A stretch of DNA of 64,000 nucleotides from Desulfobacteraceae bacterium. Lineage in GTDB: Bacteria; Desulfobacterota; Desulfobacteria; Desulfobacterales; Desulfosalsimonadaceae. A program made the translations under genes and the position numbers. The notes below the pieces were generated by a model. It saw nothing but the letters and a program-made list of their open reading frames with translations, searched no databases and was not told where the DNA came from. Shown here one piece after another: positions 2,419-64,000 of the stretch. Positions within the stretch are counted from its first letter, which is position 1; each line of letters begins with the position of its first letter. The DNA is taken from positions 1-64,000 of the forward strand of contig QZJS01000075.1 of assembly GCA_003597945.1 (NCBI GenBank), given 5' to 3'.

Positions 2419-2497
2419 CAGAAAGTCGATTGTGAGCGAGATCGTGGATTGCGGGAAAAAACCTAAAGACTCTCGAAACGAACCATCCGATTTTCTG
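2419..2497. repeat. Short member of structured repeat family, between rfbB and rfbA
   Basis: CAGAAAGTCGATTGTGAGCGAGATCGTGGATTGCGGGAAAAAACCTAAAGACTCTCGAAACGAACCATCCGATTTTCTG. Confidence 0.6.
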
Positions 2498-6097: not shown

Positions 6098-6910
6098 TCA
6101 TTTTCCTGACTGAAAATATGCGTCGACGGCTTTTCGGATATGAATTCCCACATCCGAGAGAAACCGGGGATCTTTTAATGCATCCCTGGCCGCCGGGTTG
6201 GTCAGGTACCCTGCCTCCAGCACCACCGCCGGTGCATCGACGCCCTGGAGCACCCGCAACGGGGCCTGCCGGATCTCCACCGCAGGTATGCGGAGATCGG
6301 ACTGGAACTGCGATTTCAGGCATTCGGCCAGGTTCAGGCCCGCGGTTTCATGGCGGGGCTGGATTTCGCGCCACAGGATGCCATCATTGTTTTGCACCTT
6401 TGAAGACGTAACCGGGACCTGCGCATCCGCCCCGTGACGCCGGGCCATGTCCGGATGATCCCCGAAAGTGTATATTTCCCAGGCGTTGACATGCTGCTGC
6501 CGACTGCCGCCCAGATGAAGACTGATAAACAGATCGGCCCGGTGCTGATTGGCGGCCGAGGCCCGACGGGCCAAATCCAGGTGGTAATCTCCGGTCCGGG
6601 TCAGCACCACCCGGTAATCCGGCCGCAGAGCATCCGCCATGGCAAGAGCGAGAAGCAGGGTTATATCCTTTTCATATTCACCCCCCCGACTTTCGGCTCC
6701 CCTGTCATGCCCACCGTGGCCCGGATCGATCACGATCACGCGGGTACCGCCGGAATCGGACGCGGCCAGCGCGCTGCCGCTGGTCCCATGCGGGACCGTC
6801 AGCGCCGCGGACAGCATTGCCAGACCCCAAAAAAAGGATACATGGCGTTGCATCTGTTTTTTGAATGCCGTCATATCAATGCCTTGTCTTTCTTTTATTT
6901 TTCTTGACAC
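6098..6910 (-). CDS. N-acetylmuramoyl-L-alanine amidase (Amidase_3), exported
   Basis: [29 protein letters not shown]..., [42 protein letters not shown]; start may be the Met near 6874. Confidence 0.88.
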
Positions 6911-41130: not shown

Positions 41131-41222
41131 CTGGGTTAAAAGTCCGATTTTTCGATTCAAAAGTCTTTCGTGATACGATTTTCCCTGAAACTCACAATCT
41201 GGCTCAAAATCGACTTTTTGTC
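41131..41222. repeat. Short member of structured repeat family
   Basis: Minus strand AAAAAGTCGATTTTGAGCCAGATTGTGAGTTTCAGGGAAAATCGTATCACGAAAGACTTTTGAATCGAAAAATCGGACTTTT. Confidence 0.6.
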
Positions 41223-58136: not shown

Positions 58137-60596
58137 CTATTTATCGCCTTCCGCGCTCTCATCCTTGCGCTTGTGCTGGCGGGCCAGGATAGCGACGGTT
58201 TCGCTGATCTCCTCCGGGGTCACGCTTTGGCGCAGGGCCTCCATCTGCTCCATGACCTGCTTGAAGCGGATGCCTTCGGCCGCGCTGATCCATTCCAACT
58301 GGAGCCGCTCCGGCCGGATGCCCCATTTGGCCATGCGCTTGCGGATTTTCTCCACCCGTTTTTCCGTCCACTTGTTGGCGTCGATGTAATGGCAGTCCCC
58401 GATATGGCACCCGCTCACCAGGACCACGGGCGCTCCCTGTTCAAAGCCGCGCCAGATGAATTTCTCATCCACCCGGCCCGAGCACATGGTGCGGATCATG
58501 CGCACGTTGGGCGGATACTGGAGCCGCGACACGCCGGCGTAATCGGCTCCCGCATAGGAGCACCAGTTGCAGGCAAAGGCCAGGATCTTGGTTTCCGCTT
58601 TGGTTTCCAGCAATGCGTCCACCTGGCCGATGATCTGCTCGTCGGTGTAATGGTTCATGATAATGGCCCCGAAGGCGCACTCGGCCGCGCATGTGCCGCA
58701 GCCGGCGCAGGCCGCGGTATTGACCACGGCCGGGGTCTTGGCACGGACATCCACCACAATGGCGTTATACGGGCAGACTTCGGCGCACTTGCCGCAGGAT
58801 TTGCAGAACCGGGGGATCACTTCGGAGGTGATGGGCTCGGTGGCGATCTCGCCTTTGTGCATCAGCCGGATGGCCCGGGCCGCCGCGGCCGACGCCTGGG
58901 TGACCGATTCCTTGATGTCTTTGGGACTTTCCGCGCACCCGGCGTAAAATACGCCCCGGGTGGCGGCATCCACGGGCTGAAGCTTGGGATGGGCTTCCAG
59001 GAAAAACCCGTCGGGCGTCATCTGGAGTCCCAGCATTTCCTGAAGCCGCCGGGCCCCGTCGGCCGGCTCCAGGCCCAGGGCCAGGACCAGCATATCCAAA
59101 TCATGGGTTTCCAATCCGCCGGTGACCGTGTTTTCCACCGACACCCGCAGGCTCTTGTCGGGAAGCTGCGTGACATTGCCGGGCAGACCCCGGAGATAAT
59201 TGACCCCCAGCCGCCGGCTCCGTTTGAACAGGTCCTCGAATCCCTTTCCAAAGGCCCGGATGTCGATGTAGAATACCTTGATGTCGATATCCGGATAATG
59301 TTCTTTCAACACCAGGGTGCTCTTGATGGTGTTCATGCAGCAGACATTGGAGCAGTAATCGCTCCCCCGGCGGCTGCTCCGGGAGCCCACGCACTGAATG
59401 AAACCGATGGATTTCGGGTGATTGCGGTCCGTTGGCCGGATCAGTTCCCCGCTGGTGGGGCCGCCGGCATTGACCATGCGCTCAAATTCCAGGCTGGTGA
59501 GCACGTTTTCAAACCGGGTATAACCGTATTCGTCCAGCTCCCGGGGGTTGTAAGGCTTCAATCCCGTGGCCACGATGATGGAGCCCACCTTTTCGGTGAT
59601 TTCCGCGTCCGACATGTGGAAATCGATGCTCTTTTTCTCGCAGGCATCCAGGCATTTGGCGCATACGGTCAGGTTGTGGCCCAGGCATTCATCCAGGTTG
59701 ATGACATAGGCCGAGGGCACGGCCTGGGGAAACGGCGAAAAAATGGCCTTGCGGGAGGAAAGCCCCATGTTGAACTCATCGGGCCGCACCACCGGGCAGA
59801 CCGCCACGCAGTCCCCGCAGGCGGTGCAGGATTTTTCGTCGATATAGCGGGCTTTTTTAAGGATTTTGACCTCAAAATTGCCCACGTAGCCGGAAACGTC
59901 CGTGACTTCGCTTAAGGTCAGCAGCTTTATTTTGGGATGTCGACCGACATCCGTCATCTTCGGACCGAGAATTCAGATGGAACAGTCCATGGTGGGAAAG
60001 GTCTTGTCCAACTGGGCCATGACCCCGCCGATGGACGGATTCTTCTCCACCATGACCACCTCGTACCCGTTGTCGGCCAAATCCAGGGCCGCCTGAATCC
60101 CGGCCACCCCGCCGCCGATGACCAACGTGCGCCTGGTCAGAGGAAGGATATCCTCATACAGGGGCTCGAGTTTGCGGACCCGGGCCACGCCCATCCGAAT
60201 CAGGTCCAGAGCCTTTTCGGTGGCATCTTCGGGCGCGCGCATGTGAACCCAACTGCACTGTTCCCGCAGATTGGCCATCTCCAGCATATAGGGGTTCAGA
60301 CCGGCGGCCTGCATCATCTGCCGAAATGTCGGCTCGTGCAGCCGCGGCGAACATGCCCCGATCACGACGCGATCCAGACCGTTGGCCAGGATGTCTTCCC
60401 GGATTTCCTGCTGGCCGGGCTCGGAACAGGCATACAGAATGCTCCGGGACACCACCACGTCCGGACTGCCGGCCAGTTTTTCGGCCACGGCCTCGCAATC
60501 CACGGTCCGCGCGATGTTGAGCCCGCAATGGCAGACATACACGCCGATCCGGCTCCCCGCCGCTTCCGGCGATGTTTCCATCAGTTTTGCTTCCAT
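58137..60596 (-). CDS. hdrA: HdrA-MvhD fusion selenoprotein; in-frame UGA at 59973-59975 read as Sec
   Basis: ORFs 59973..60596 and 58137..59957 are one frame: GGVMAQLDKTFPTMDCSI-U-ILGPKMTDVGRHPKIKLLTLSEV; FAD motif VIGGGVAGIQAALDLADNGYEVVMVEK; 4Fe-4S clusters; MvhD CNWCSYAGADYAGVSRLQYPP...CHIGDCHY. Confidence 0.9.
59935..59952 (-). promoter_or_regulatory. Putative bacterial SECIS hairpin (hdrA)
   Basis: GGAUGUC-GGUC-GACAUCC, perfect 7-bp stem starting 21 nt after UGA, apical loop GGUC. Confidence 0.82.
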
Positions 60597-60642
60597 ATTG
60601 TTGCCTCATTTAGATATGGACGGCTTATTATAAAACAGCAGA

Positions 60643-60816
60643 GTCTTAACAAGTTGATTTTGAGCGAAATCGCGGATTTCGGGGGAAAAAGCGATTTTTG
60701 CGGATGCGTCAAGAATGGCAAACTGTTTGAGGAGCCTGCGACGAGTTTTTGCCATTCAGCATCCGGAAAAATCGCGCCCCGAAAGACGTTTGAGCGCAAA
60801 ATCAACTTGTTAAGAC
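60643..60816. repeat. Long structured palindromic intergenic repeat, copy A
   Basis: Terminal GTCTTAACAAGTTGATTTTG / CAAAATCAACTTGTTAAGAC perfect arms; inner arms TTTCGGGG / CCCCGAAA and GCGATTTTTGCGGATG / CATCCGGAAAAATCGC. Confidence 0.88.
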
Positions 60817-60820
60817 GCCA

Positions 60821-62404
60821 TCACTTCCAATAAATGGTCCGCGCAATCACGCTGGCGAGATCGAGCATCTCCATTTCGATCTCCTCCTTTAAAAACATAT
60901 CCTCCATGGCGCATTTGAGATGAATCTGGCATTTGGGGCAGGCCGTGACCAGCAGATCCGCGCCGGTTTCCTTTGCCTGGCGAAGCCGCCGCACCTGGAG
61001 ATTCTTGGAATAGGCGTCGCACATGCTCCACCCGCTGTTGCCGCAGCAGATGCTGCCGGCGCCCCTTTCGTCCATCTCGAAAAACCCGTCGGTCTTGAGC
61101 CGGGCGATGAGATTTCGGGGCAGATCCGCCATGTGTTCATGCCGGCTCAGACGGCAGGGATCCTGAAAGCTGATGCGGCGGTTGAGCTTTTTAAACCCCA
61201 CGGCCCCCTTGCCGATCTCCCGCTCCAGCAGATCATACATGTGGGTGACCTTAAAAGGCAGCTTGACGCCGTTGGCCGGATAATCATGATGCAGGGTGCG
61301 AAAACATTCCGGACATGTCGTCACCACTTCTTCGGCGCCCGTTGCCGCGATGGCGTCCACGTTAAGCTTGGCCAGGGCCAGGAAATTCTCCCGGTCGCCC
61401 GTCCAGAGCAGATCATGGCCGCAGCACCGCTCGCCGGACAGCAGGACCGGCTTGATGTCGAAAAAATTGAGCAGCCGCAGACTGTCTTCCAATATCATAT
61501 TGGTCCGGGCGCGGACGTAACTCTTGAAAAACACGTCAAAATACGGCGCGCACCCCCCGAAAAACAAAATGGGCCCGGCCGTCTCCGTCTGGATATCTTC
61601 CGGCAGCCAGTCCCAGTGCTTCACGGGAATATCAGCATGGGTCATGGCCCGCATCAGGGACTGGAACACCCCGCTGTGAGCCTTGTGGCCATCCTCGCCG
61701 CCTTCCAGCAGCACGTGGCGGATCTCCTGGATAAACGACGGGAAATCCACGGCCGACGGGCACCGCTGATAGCAGATGCCGCAGGTGAGACAGGACCAGA
61801 TATCCTGCTGCACCGCCTCGGCGGCGATCTCTCCGGCGATCAGGGACCGGACAATGGCCCGGGGGGAATAATTTTTCCCGGACAGGGCCAACGGGCAGGC
61901 CGACGTGCATTTGCCGCAATCCTGGCACGCGTGGGCGTCGTATCTGGCGATGATGGCGTCCACCGCGGCCCGGTCGATGGGCGCCCTCTCCTTCCGGCGG
62001 CCGGGGAGAATGGGCGTGGGGCCGAGTTCCCGGATCCGGGCGGTAAAATCTACCATCAGGGCCAGCAGCGCGTCGGCGGCATCGGGCAGAAAGGTTTCAT
62101 GCCGGATGCGCTCCCCGCCGATGCCGATAATTTCGAGCAGATGGCGGGCGTCTTCGGTGTGATCCCGGGCGATGCGGGCTCCGCCGCCGTAACGGCAGGT
62201 CCCCGGGTTGCAGCCCACCAGCAGGACCCCGTCAGCCCCGACTTCAAAGGGCTTGAACAGCAGCGACTTGCTGATGCGCCCGGTGCACGGAATCCGGACC
62301 ATCTTGATTTCCGGCGGTATGGGGATGCGCCGGTCCTGGAGGGTCTGAAACGCCGCGTGCGGCCCCCAACTGCATAAATACAAAATGATATTAATCGGTT
62401 TCAT
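60821..62404 (-). CDS. MvhD-HdrD-like fusion (delta subunit domain + 4Fe-4S + CCG domains)
   Basis: MVRIPCTGRISKSLLFKPFEVGADGVLLVGCNPGTCRYGGG; CGKCTSACPLALSGKN, CLTCGICYQRCP; CCGHDLLW, CPECFRTLHHDYP, CCGNSGWSM, CPKCQIHLKCAM. Confidence 0.88.
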   Translation of the reverse strand: MKPINIILYLCSWGPHAAFQTLQDRRIPIPPEIKMVRIPCTGRISKSLLFKPFEVGADGVLLVGCNPGTCRYGGGARIARDHTEDARHLLEIIGIGGERIRHETFLPDAADALLALMVDFTARIRELGPTPILPGRRKERAPIDRAAVDAIIARYDAHACQDCGKCTSACPLALSGKNYSPRAIVRSLIAGEIAAEAVQQDIWSCLTCGICYQRCPSAVDFPSFIQEIRHVLLEGGEDGHKAHSGVFQSLMRAMTHADIPVKHWDWLPEDIQTETAGPILFFGGCAPYFDVFFKSYVRARTNMILEDSLRLLNFFDIKPVLLSGERCCGHDLLWTGDRENFLALAKLNVDAIAATGAEEVVTTCPECFRTLHHDYPANGVKLPFKVTHMYDLLEREIGKGAVGFKKLNRRISFQDPCRLSRHEHMADLPRNLIARLKTDGFFEMDERGAGSICCGNSGWSMCDAYSKNLQVRRLRQAKETGADLLVTACPKCQIHLKCAMEDMFLKEEIEMEMLDLASVIARTIYWK

Positions 62405-62439
62405 TTATTCCCCGAACAACCATGTCTGGTATCTTGCCG

Positions 62440-62522
62440 TTGAACGCCGCGTTGTTCGCTTCAGAGTCTTTCGGGGGCTTCCCCCCCGAAATCCACAATT
62501 CAGCTCACAAGCGGCCTTCAAC
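62440..62522. repeat. Short member of structured repeat family
   Basis: Minus strand TTGTGAGCTGAATTGTGGATTTCGGGG..CCCCCGAAAGACTCTGAAGCGAA flanked by TTGAA..GCGGCC / CGCGGCGTTCAA arms. Confidence 0.65.
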
Positions 62523-62592
62523 CGCCAAAATAATGGCAGCTTTACACTGTTAAACTTCGCCGTTTAGTCTTGACCTCTATTCTTGTCGTTAG

Positions 62593-62769
62593 GGCCTGAA
62601 CAATTTGATTTTGAAAGAAATCGCGGATTTCGGGGGAAAAAGCGATTTTCGCGGATGCGTCAAAAATGGCAAACTGTTTGAGGAGCCTGCGACGAGTTTT
62701 TGCCATTCAGCATCCGAGAAAATCGCGCCCCGAAAGACGCTTGAGCGAAAAATCAACTTATTCAGACCC
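62593..62769. repeat. Long structured palindromic intergenic repeat, copy B
   Basis: Near-identical to copy A over ~165 bp (ATTTCGGGGGAAAAAGCGATTT...GGCAAACTGTTTGAGGAGCCTGCGACGAGTTTTTGCCATTCAGCATCCG...). Confidence 0.88.
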
Positions 62770-62786
62770 GATCATTAATGTTGTTG

Positions 62787-64000
62787 TTATTCCGGCAGCG
62801 GCGCATCCATCAGTTCGGCGATGGTCTGCTCCAGAAACGCCAGGTCCCGGTACGGGCTTTCGGCCGCGTTGGAGGGGCATACGGAAATGCAGTTGCCGCA
62901 CCCCTTGCACAGGGCCTCGTCGATCACCGCGTGCCAGCCGCCCAGGCTGTTTTTCGTCATGTCGATGGCTTCAAAGGGGCATACCCCGATGCACCGGCCG
63001 CAGCCGCGGCAGATGTCTTCCCGGACCACCACCATGTATCCCTTATTCTGCCGCGGCCCCCGAGGCATGACGGCGGCGGCCAGCAAGGCCGCAGCCGCGC
63101 CCTTGCGTCGGGCCGACACCCGGATGCCCGGCGGCTCAGCAAGGAAAAGGCCCGATATGGCGGTCATGCCCGGATACTTGAAGGGAATGCCGTCCACGTC
63201 GGCTTCCTGAAGGGATGGATCCACCCGGTGGCCCGGCAGTTCTTCCTGCCGGATATAATCAATGCTTTTGCGCCCTTTTTCCGACAAAATCACCGCGCCC
63301 GCCTGAAGGGTCCGCTGGTTGTCGCCTTCGACGGCTGTTACCTGGAAATTGCCCAAAGTCCCGCTGATGGCCCTGACCGCGGCATTTTTGAAATAATGGA
63401 TATTGGGGTGCAGAACCTCTTGCCCGCATGATTCACCCCCTACCCCGAACAGAAATACTTCCAGGCCGAAATCCGCCAGAGTGGCCGCGGCCTCCAGGGA
63501 GGCTTCGGAGCATCCGATCACCGCGGTGGTGAAATTGTAATTGCGGGCCGGCGAGGGAAACGGCTTGAGGTTCCGGGACCGGCTAACGGAGCGGTTCATC
63601 ATGCCGGTAAACCGCTTGAAAGCCAGATCCGGGTCCCGCTCCAGAAAACTCAGCACTTCCCCCCGCATATTGTAGGGCTGCACCATGGACCGGCTGATGC
63701 CGGTGCCGTTAAACAGCCCGTCCTTGAGGCGGCTGCGGGAATACGTGCAGGAACTGCATACGAAATTGAGCGGGCAGCACACGCATGAGGCCAGCACCAG
63801 CCGGGTGATCTCCTTTTCCCGCACGGCCCGCAGGATGGCCGCGATCCCCTCCGGGGTGCACGCCGAATCCACCACATCGGAAAAAACGATATCGGATTCC
63901 CGCGTCAAACCGCCCACAAAATCGGTCATGGCATCGGTCCAGCCGAAGGAATCATTGCACCGACAGGCAATCACGCCGATGCGGATCTCCGGGGAAAGAC
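62787..64000 (-). CDS. HdrA-like C-terminal iron-sulfur/FAD-type protein (open at window end)
   Basis: NYNFTTAVIGCSEASLEAAATLADFGLEVFLFGVGG; CRGCGRCIGVCPFEAIDM and CKGCGNCISVCPSNAAE; the frame stays open to 64000 (LSPEIRIGVIACRCNDSFG). Confidence 0.78.
   Translation of the reverse strand, partial: LSPEIRIGVIACRCNDSFGWTDAMTDFVGGLTRESDIVFSDVVDSACTPEGIAAILRAVREKEITRLVLASCVCCPLNFVCSSCTYSRSRLKDGLFNGTGISRSMVQPYNMRGEVLSFLERDPDLAFKRFTGMMNRSVSRSRNLKPFPSPARNYNFTTAVIGCSEASLEAAATLADFGLEVFLFGVGGESCGQEVLHPNIHYFKNAAVRAISGTLGNFQVTAVEGDNQRTLQAGAVILSEKGRKSIDYIRQEELPGHRVDPSLQEADVDGIPFKYPGMTAISGLFLAEPPGIRVSARRKGAAAALLAAAVMPRGPRQNKGYMVVVREDICRGCGRCIGVCPFEAIDMTKNSLGGWHAVIDEALCKGCGNCISVCPSNAAESPYRDLAFLEQTIAELMDAPLPE

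Follow-up and report, generated by a model that had tools for sequence, protein, structure and literature searches.

Two long, near-identical palindromes occupy gaps between genes of an hdr-type operon in a draft Desulfobacteraceae genome, and the locus raises the question of what these palindromes are and what maintains their fold. The window analyzed here is the whole 64,000-nucleotide stretch of DNA that carries this operon. A first-pass annotation had placed the palindromes at 60643-60816 (copy A) and 62593-62769 (copy B), between co-oriented genes. We found the location to be correct, with genes on the minus strand and with A and B 93% identical over 172 bp and almost gapless, while alignment to the family places the exact ends slightly further out (Table 1). 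The reported change from a T:A pair in A to a C:G pair in B, which keeps the pairing, is real. Folded as RNA, copy A reached -79.8 kcal/mol (z = -10.4) and copy B reached -76.3 kcal/mol (z = -8.0), and no shuffled sequence equaled either value. From the analysis below, we conclude that both palindromes are old insertions of a MITE-like, non-autonomous transposable element approximately 187 bp in length.

A dispersed family and its empty sites

To count the copies, we searched the draft genome that contains the window (3.72 Mb in 137 contigs, 88% complete). Genome-wide BLAST with copy A, a check proposed in the first-pass annotation, hit 43 places, and a search for the core pattern gave 36 matches. 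We then built a covariance model, R1, from 19 sequences out of several genomes. R1 yielded 84 matches in this genome, of which 38 are close copies, about 31 belong to a second subfamily and about 13 are short forms; the figure of 84 is probably an undercount, since only part of the candidates were scored and some contigs end inside copies. The short forms (approximately 55 nt) keep the outer part of the element and lack the inner hairpin. A local segmental duplication of one palindrome inside the hdr operon, the case that the first-pass annotation had named as its own refutation, could be entertained while only A and B were visible in the stretch first described. We reject it given the 84 matches of a dispersed family, in which several further copies, C71:20266 among them, resemble A almost as closely as B does.

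Within the window, a third, short relative is located about 100 bp away from copy B, in the opposite orientation, and two weaker short forms occur further away; all three had been overlooked. Copies of the two subfamilies are often inverted relative to each other and about 70-120 bp apart, as in the pairs at C71, C11, C81 and C4 of this genome, and three copies stand in tandem at C9:14275-15069 with a spacing of about 217 bp. A further long palindrome (GAAGCCGTTTCAAAACC...GGTTTTGAAATGGCTTC) lies inside or beside a left end of the element at L168 (C132 near 6100-6300). We also observed a second hairpin family of about 150 bp with the same terminal repeats (GATAGTCTCGTAAAAAGTC...GACTTTTTACAAGGCCGTC), present at the start of the window and at L228-L233, L236, L238, L239 and L242. 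Several of its copies have exact target duplications, and many contig ends of the draft fall within this family.

Table 1. Positions of the element copies, related elements and neighboring genes in the window
Feature	Position	Strand	Basis or remark
Copy A of the element	ends near 60637..60822	+ (strand with the preserved fold)	ends by alignment to the terminal repeat
Structured core, copy A	60657..60801	+	covariance model R1, 157 bits, E = 8.2e-51
Right terminal inverted repeat, copy A	60804..60822	-	GATGGCGTCTTAACAAGTT, 3 mismatches to GATGGNNTCGTAAAAAGTC
Copy B of the element	ends near 62588..62773	+	alignment to the family
Structured core, copy B	62608..62751	+	covariance model R1, 143 bits, E = 8.9e-46
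Short form without inner hairpin, inverted relative to copy B	62430..62532 (core 62454-62511)	-	R1, E = 1.4e-8; arms by alignment
Weak short form	41150..41210	-	R1, E = 2.2e-4
Weak short form	2429..2483	+	R1, E = 4.5e-4
End of a different hairpin element (about 150 bp) that shares the terminal repeat and is truncated at the contig end	1..96	-	repeat at 78-96 with 2 mismatches; complete copies at other loci
Ferredoxin-like gene of the hdr-type operon, upstream of copy B and extending past the window	62787..63998	-	gene order conserved in relatives
HdrD-like gene between copies B and A	60821..62404	-	orthologues in relatives
HdrA-like gene, downstream of copy A and interrupted by a single in-frame TGA at 59973-59975	58137..60596	-	orthologues

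Across the order, R1 matched 96 of 292 sampled genomes, and in a phylum sample of 395 genomes approximately 11 further genomes outside the order had matches. Scanning named public genomes with the motif returned 14 stretches, mostly from Desulfobacterales assemblies with the same fold; the motif matches in Chloroflexi, Gulosibacter and Flavobacteriales have a fold unlike that of the element and look like chance. The neighborhoods of copies in other genomes revealed no recurrent neighboring gene, and we found no description of the present family in the literature searched on Desulfobacterales repeats.

The order of the upstream gene, the hdrD-like gene and the hdrA-like gene is kept in relatives. 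The two gaps measure 382 nt and 224 nt in the window; in the orthologous operons of the relatives G005 and G023 they span only about 0-5 nt and 26-51 nt. Both relatives have empty sites, the element being absent from the same hdr operon. Between the hdrD-like and hdrA-like genes, a long hairpin of another kind is present in most of the remaining relatives, so that this gap looks like a repeated landing place. The long hairpin repeats in it differ between genera (L177, L178, L179, L180, L181, L183), and it also holds GTAGGTCGGGATTCC-type REP sequences. The single in-frame TGA of the hdrA-like gene (...DCSI*ILGPKM...) looks like a selenocysteine codon.

Element ends, target duplications and a candidate transposase

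The element is bounded on both sides by 19-bp inverted repeats (GAYGGnnYCGTAAAAAGTC), and recent copies have termini GATG...CATC flanked by exact 6-7 bp AT-rich repeats. Exact duplications in the genome of the window were AAATTT, AAGTTT, AATATC, AAACCAT, ATGTGTT, AATATTT and AATTTT. Five close copies had flanking repeats of at least 6 bp compared to 0.57 expected, and none of 300 shuffles scored as high; the same test gave little evidence of duplication for the second subfamily. No clear target duplication was seen at copies A and B, and the left ends of both are decayed. The end sequence GATGGnnTCGTAAAAAGTC is common to other genomes and also occurs in other hairpin families. Among elements of 38-190 bp bounded by GATGGnnTCGTAAAAAGTC in several genomes, about two dozen had exact duplications (for example AATTTT, AATATT and AAATCTT), including a confirmed R1 match in G252 and, in G140 and G256, elements whose sequence resembles the R1 family. 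One 210-bp element is 96% identical between loci with non-matching flanks.

Some of these elements, at about 35-40 bp, consist almost entirely of two abutting terminal repeats (L241, 1314-1351 region; L244; L245, 1339-1373). The clearest, at L241, is 38 bp long and flanked by AACATT, and such elements suggest that the ends alone would suffice for movement. The family thus has the features of a MITE, being short, non-coding and multicopy with terminal inverted repeats and target-site duplication. The first-pass annotation had read the palindromes as possible mobile, MITE-like repeats, and the high copy number, inverted terminal repeats, target duplications and empty sites bear this out. By the features tested, the elements are MITEs of a new family, with an unusual interior that is conserved strand-specifically. 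Non-autonomous itself, the element has colonized intergenic DNA throughout the Desulfobacterales and, at lower density, the wider phylum.

To look for an enzyme that could mobilize the element, we searched five genomes for DDE transposases. In G228, the sequence GATGAACCCGTAAAAAGTC, preceded by AATATT, lies 48 nt ahead of the first and 112 nt ahead of the likely start codon of a DUF772/DDE gene. This end sequence has 2 mismatches to the terminal repeat and stands just upstream of the gene, which is only IS1182-like, as its product scored 118 bits against a family cut-off of 270; the contig stops inside the transposase gene, so that only one element end is visible. The best plasmid homologue of this transposase, from Microvirga sp. 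VF16 (36.6% identical), is flanked by identical 18-bp inverted ends (GACGGGGCGGTAAAAAGT). These match at 14 of 17 defined positions, and none of 2000 shuffled patterns did as well. An IS1182-like DDE transposase is therefore our candidate mobilizer, and we consider this assignment somewhat better than even; the enzyme would move the element in trans by recognizing its ends. The transposase relative (DUF772 plus DDE) thus stands beside the same terminal repeat both in G228 and on the Microvirga plasmid, but differs from the IS1182 family in its score below the family cut-off, and the duplications of 6-7 bp differ from the 4-bp duplications made by the characterized IS1182 element ISPse1 (PMC3281130).

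The genome of the window, an 88% complete draft, had no PF01609 match. The enzyme now at work there has been lost, falls outside the assembled sequence or has diverged beyond the reach of this model. Solo arms in this genome, examined as possible ends of an autonomous element, proved to be degenerate or partial copies only. Viral contigs with the terminal repeat had neither a partner end that would make a long element nor a transposase homologue. A scan of twenty G155 contigs found no long elements, and archaeal transposase homologues had no convincing inverted ends.

A hairpin conserved on one strand

We assessed covariation in 111 distinct sequences, using an alignment that was fitted to the structure and in which kinship inflates the counts. 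Paired cells amounted to 96.4% compared to 68.2% after shuffling, 29 of 37 pairs had changed in both partners, and the covariation signal vanished when partners were shifted by one to three columns. Because a structure-fitted alignment of related sequences inflates such counts, we also counted changes on a tree. This resulted in 130 pair-keeping double changes, compared to a mean of 7.5 and a maximum of 21 when partners were permuted. Covariation had been claimed from a single change in the first-pass annotation, which proposed a covariance model as a check; it extends far beyond that change. The interior forms a long hairpin in which bulges, an apical loop and an internal loop are conserved, and its compensatory changes lie on one particular strand. 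Its conserved unpaired positions include a GTnAA bulge, the apical GTTTGAGG...CG and positions in a GA-rich internal loop. As one hairpin has been kept through about 130 independent paired base changes, the fold itself matters and is under selection. Double changes outnumbered broken pairs 77 to 29 on internal branches, with 53 to 67 on terminal branches. This is as expected if the lineages that spread are under constraint while many of the copies in place decay; ordinary purifying selection would give a similar pattern.

Several asymmetries between the strands were evident. G-U cells outnumbered A-C cells 141 to 23 (about 6 to 1), or 74 to 20 when counted as separate changes, and G-A cells outnumbered C-U cells about 83 to 11. 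The aligned strand folded better in 122 of 126 elements (36/38, 31/31, 11/13 and 44/44), with a margin of approximately 12 kcal/mol for nearly every long copy in the genome of the window. These asymmetries indicate that one strand is selected in its single-stranded form, either as RNA or as DNA.

Quasi-palindromes can be corrected by template-switching during replication, and we considered whether the arms of a neutral MITE might be kept complementary in this way, with no selection for a folded strand. Such a process would be consistent with the few one-sided intermediates seen at several pairs. We judge it improbable, however, as the asymmetric bulges and loops have been conserved rather than erased, the G-U:A-C and G-A:C-U asymmetries point to one strand, and double changes dominate the internal branches, though less so the tips.

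In the window, the fold is preserved on the plus strand, which runs antisense to the hdr genes. Of 52 long copies situated between co-oriented genes, 37 were antisense, including both copies in the window, and 15 were sense (two-sided sign test, approximately 0.003); three of the 15 sense copies belong to one tandem array, and the gene calls behind these counts are heuristic. The neighboring genes would thus mostly transcribe the strand opposite to the folded one. The short forms showed the opposite orientation, with 9 sense and 2 antisense. Nearly all copies are intergenic, and convergent (10) and divergent (8) gaps are used about equally, which speaks against a terminator role. Many element ends coincide with a stop codon because the terminal TGATGG supplies a TGA. 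At copy A, it forms the TGA stop codon (60821-60823) of the upstream gene, which the GA of the right terminal repeat completes. GTAG REPs have likewise been reported to supply TAG stop codons (PMC3733652).

The almost exclusively intergenic placement, the many copies abutting stop codons and the strong folds could suggest a structured RNA that serves the host in its mRNAs, as a 3'-end stabilizer, processing site or terminator, and is only apparently repetitive. An mRNA processing or stability element had also been offered as an option in the first-pass annotation. This is not the best reading, since it is the antisense strand, relative to the hdr genes and most other co-oriented neighbors, that keeps the fold. 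The similar use of convergent and divergent gaps also speaks against a host mRNA element, as do the target duplications and empty sites, which show insertion, and we regard such an element as distinctly improbable. The overall explanation, MITE insertion with a hairpin interior selected on one strand and with proposed mobilization in trans by an IS1182-related enzyme, is very probable. As RNA or single-stranded DNA, the folded strand would be bound by something that favors the spread or persistence of the element.

Relation to known elements and significance

A strand-specific hairpin with a conserved bulge also characterizes REPs (PMC8266576), and the first-pass annotation had raised a REP-like origin and proposed a search for a linked RAYT. 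We therefore considered whether the palindromes might be REP-like and mobilized as single-stranded hairpins by a RAYT (TnpA-REP, HUH) transposase, and Y1_Tnp genes are indeed present in these genomes. RAYT loci bear other inverted repeats, however, and their numbers do not track the abundance of the element: G139 combines at least 10 copies with the absence of any Y1_Tnp match, while G001 and G044 have 16 and 24 Y1_Tnp matches and no copies. In ten Y1_Tnp neighborhoods, neither a terminal repeat nor an element was found beside the gene, and one unrelated copy lay about 4 kb away. The REP definition of a 20-50 nt palindrome tagged with GTAG (or CGTC) does not describe an element of about 187 bp with GATGG ends and target duplications, and RAYT mobilization is highly improbable. 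The element shares with REPs and REPINs an extragenic location, palindromic structure, strand-specific bulged hairpin, inverted pairs and stop-supplying termini (PMC8266576, PMC3116915), but differs in being about five times longer, in its target duplications and in having neither a GTAG tag nor a RAYT link.

In form, the element resembles bacterial MITEs such as RUP, NEMIS/Correia, ERIC and Nezha (PMC3733652). Like these, the element is short, non-coding and intergenic, with inverted ends, target duplications, high copy number and strong hairpins. It differs from them in its own ends, its 6-7 bp AT-rich duplications, its conserved unpaired motifs and its extensive strand-specific covariation. 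HEARO-type multi-copy structured RNAs of mobile elements are likewise, as generally described, large, structured, repeated and covarying, but the present element has no Rfam match at the gathering level. At E values up to 1, Rfam gave only two chance-level matches, both outside the element.

MITEs are usually regarded as passive remnants with decaying palindromes. The present family, found across the phylum, holds a complex one-strand fold through about 130 paired changes, while elements that are nearly ends only also show target duplications. The question of why a mobile element that perhaps needs only its ends keeps an elaborate interior thereby becomes testable. It is conceivable, though we hold it only tentatively, that the interior is a device in its own right, a mobile non-coding RNA or single-stranded DNA that has a dedicated protein partner, travels across the phylum as cargo on MITE ends and is kept for the action of its fold instead of as a by-product of palindromic ends. 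The fold may also serve a role beyond the element's own spread. In their host genomes, these repeats break draft assemblies, place long hairpins in energy-metabolism operons and give stop codons to neighboring genes.
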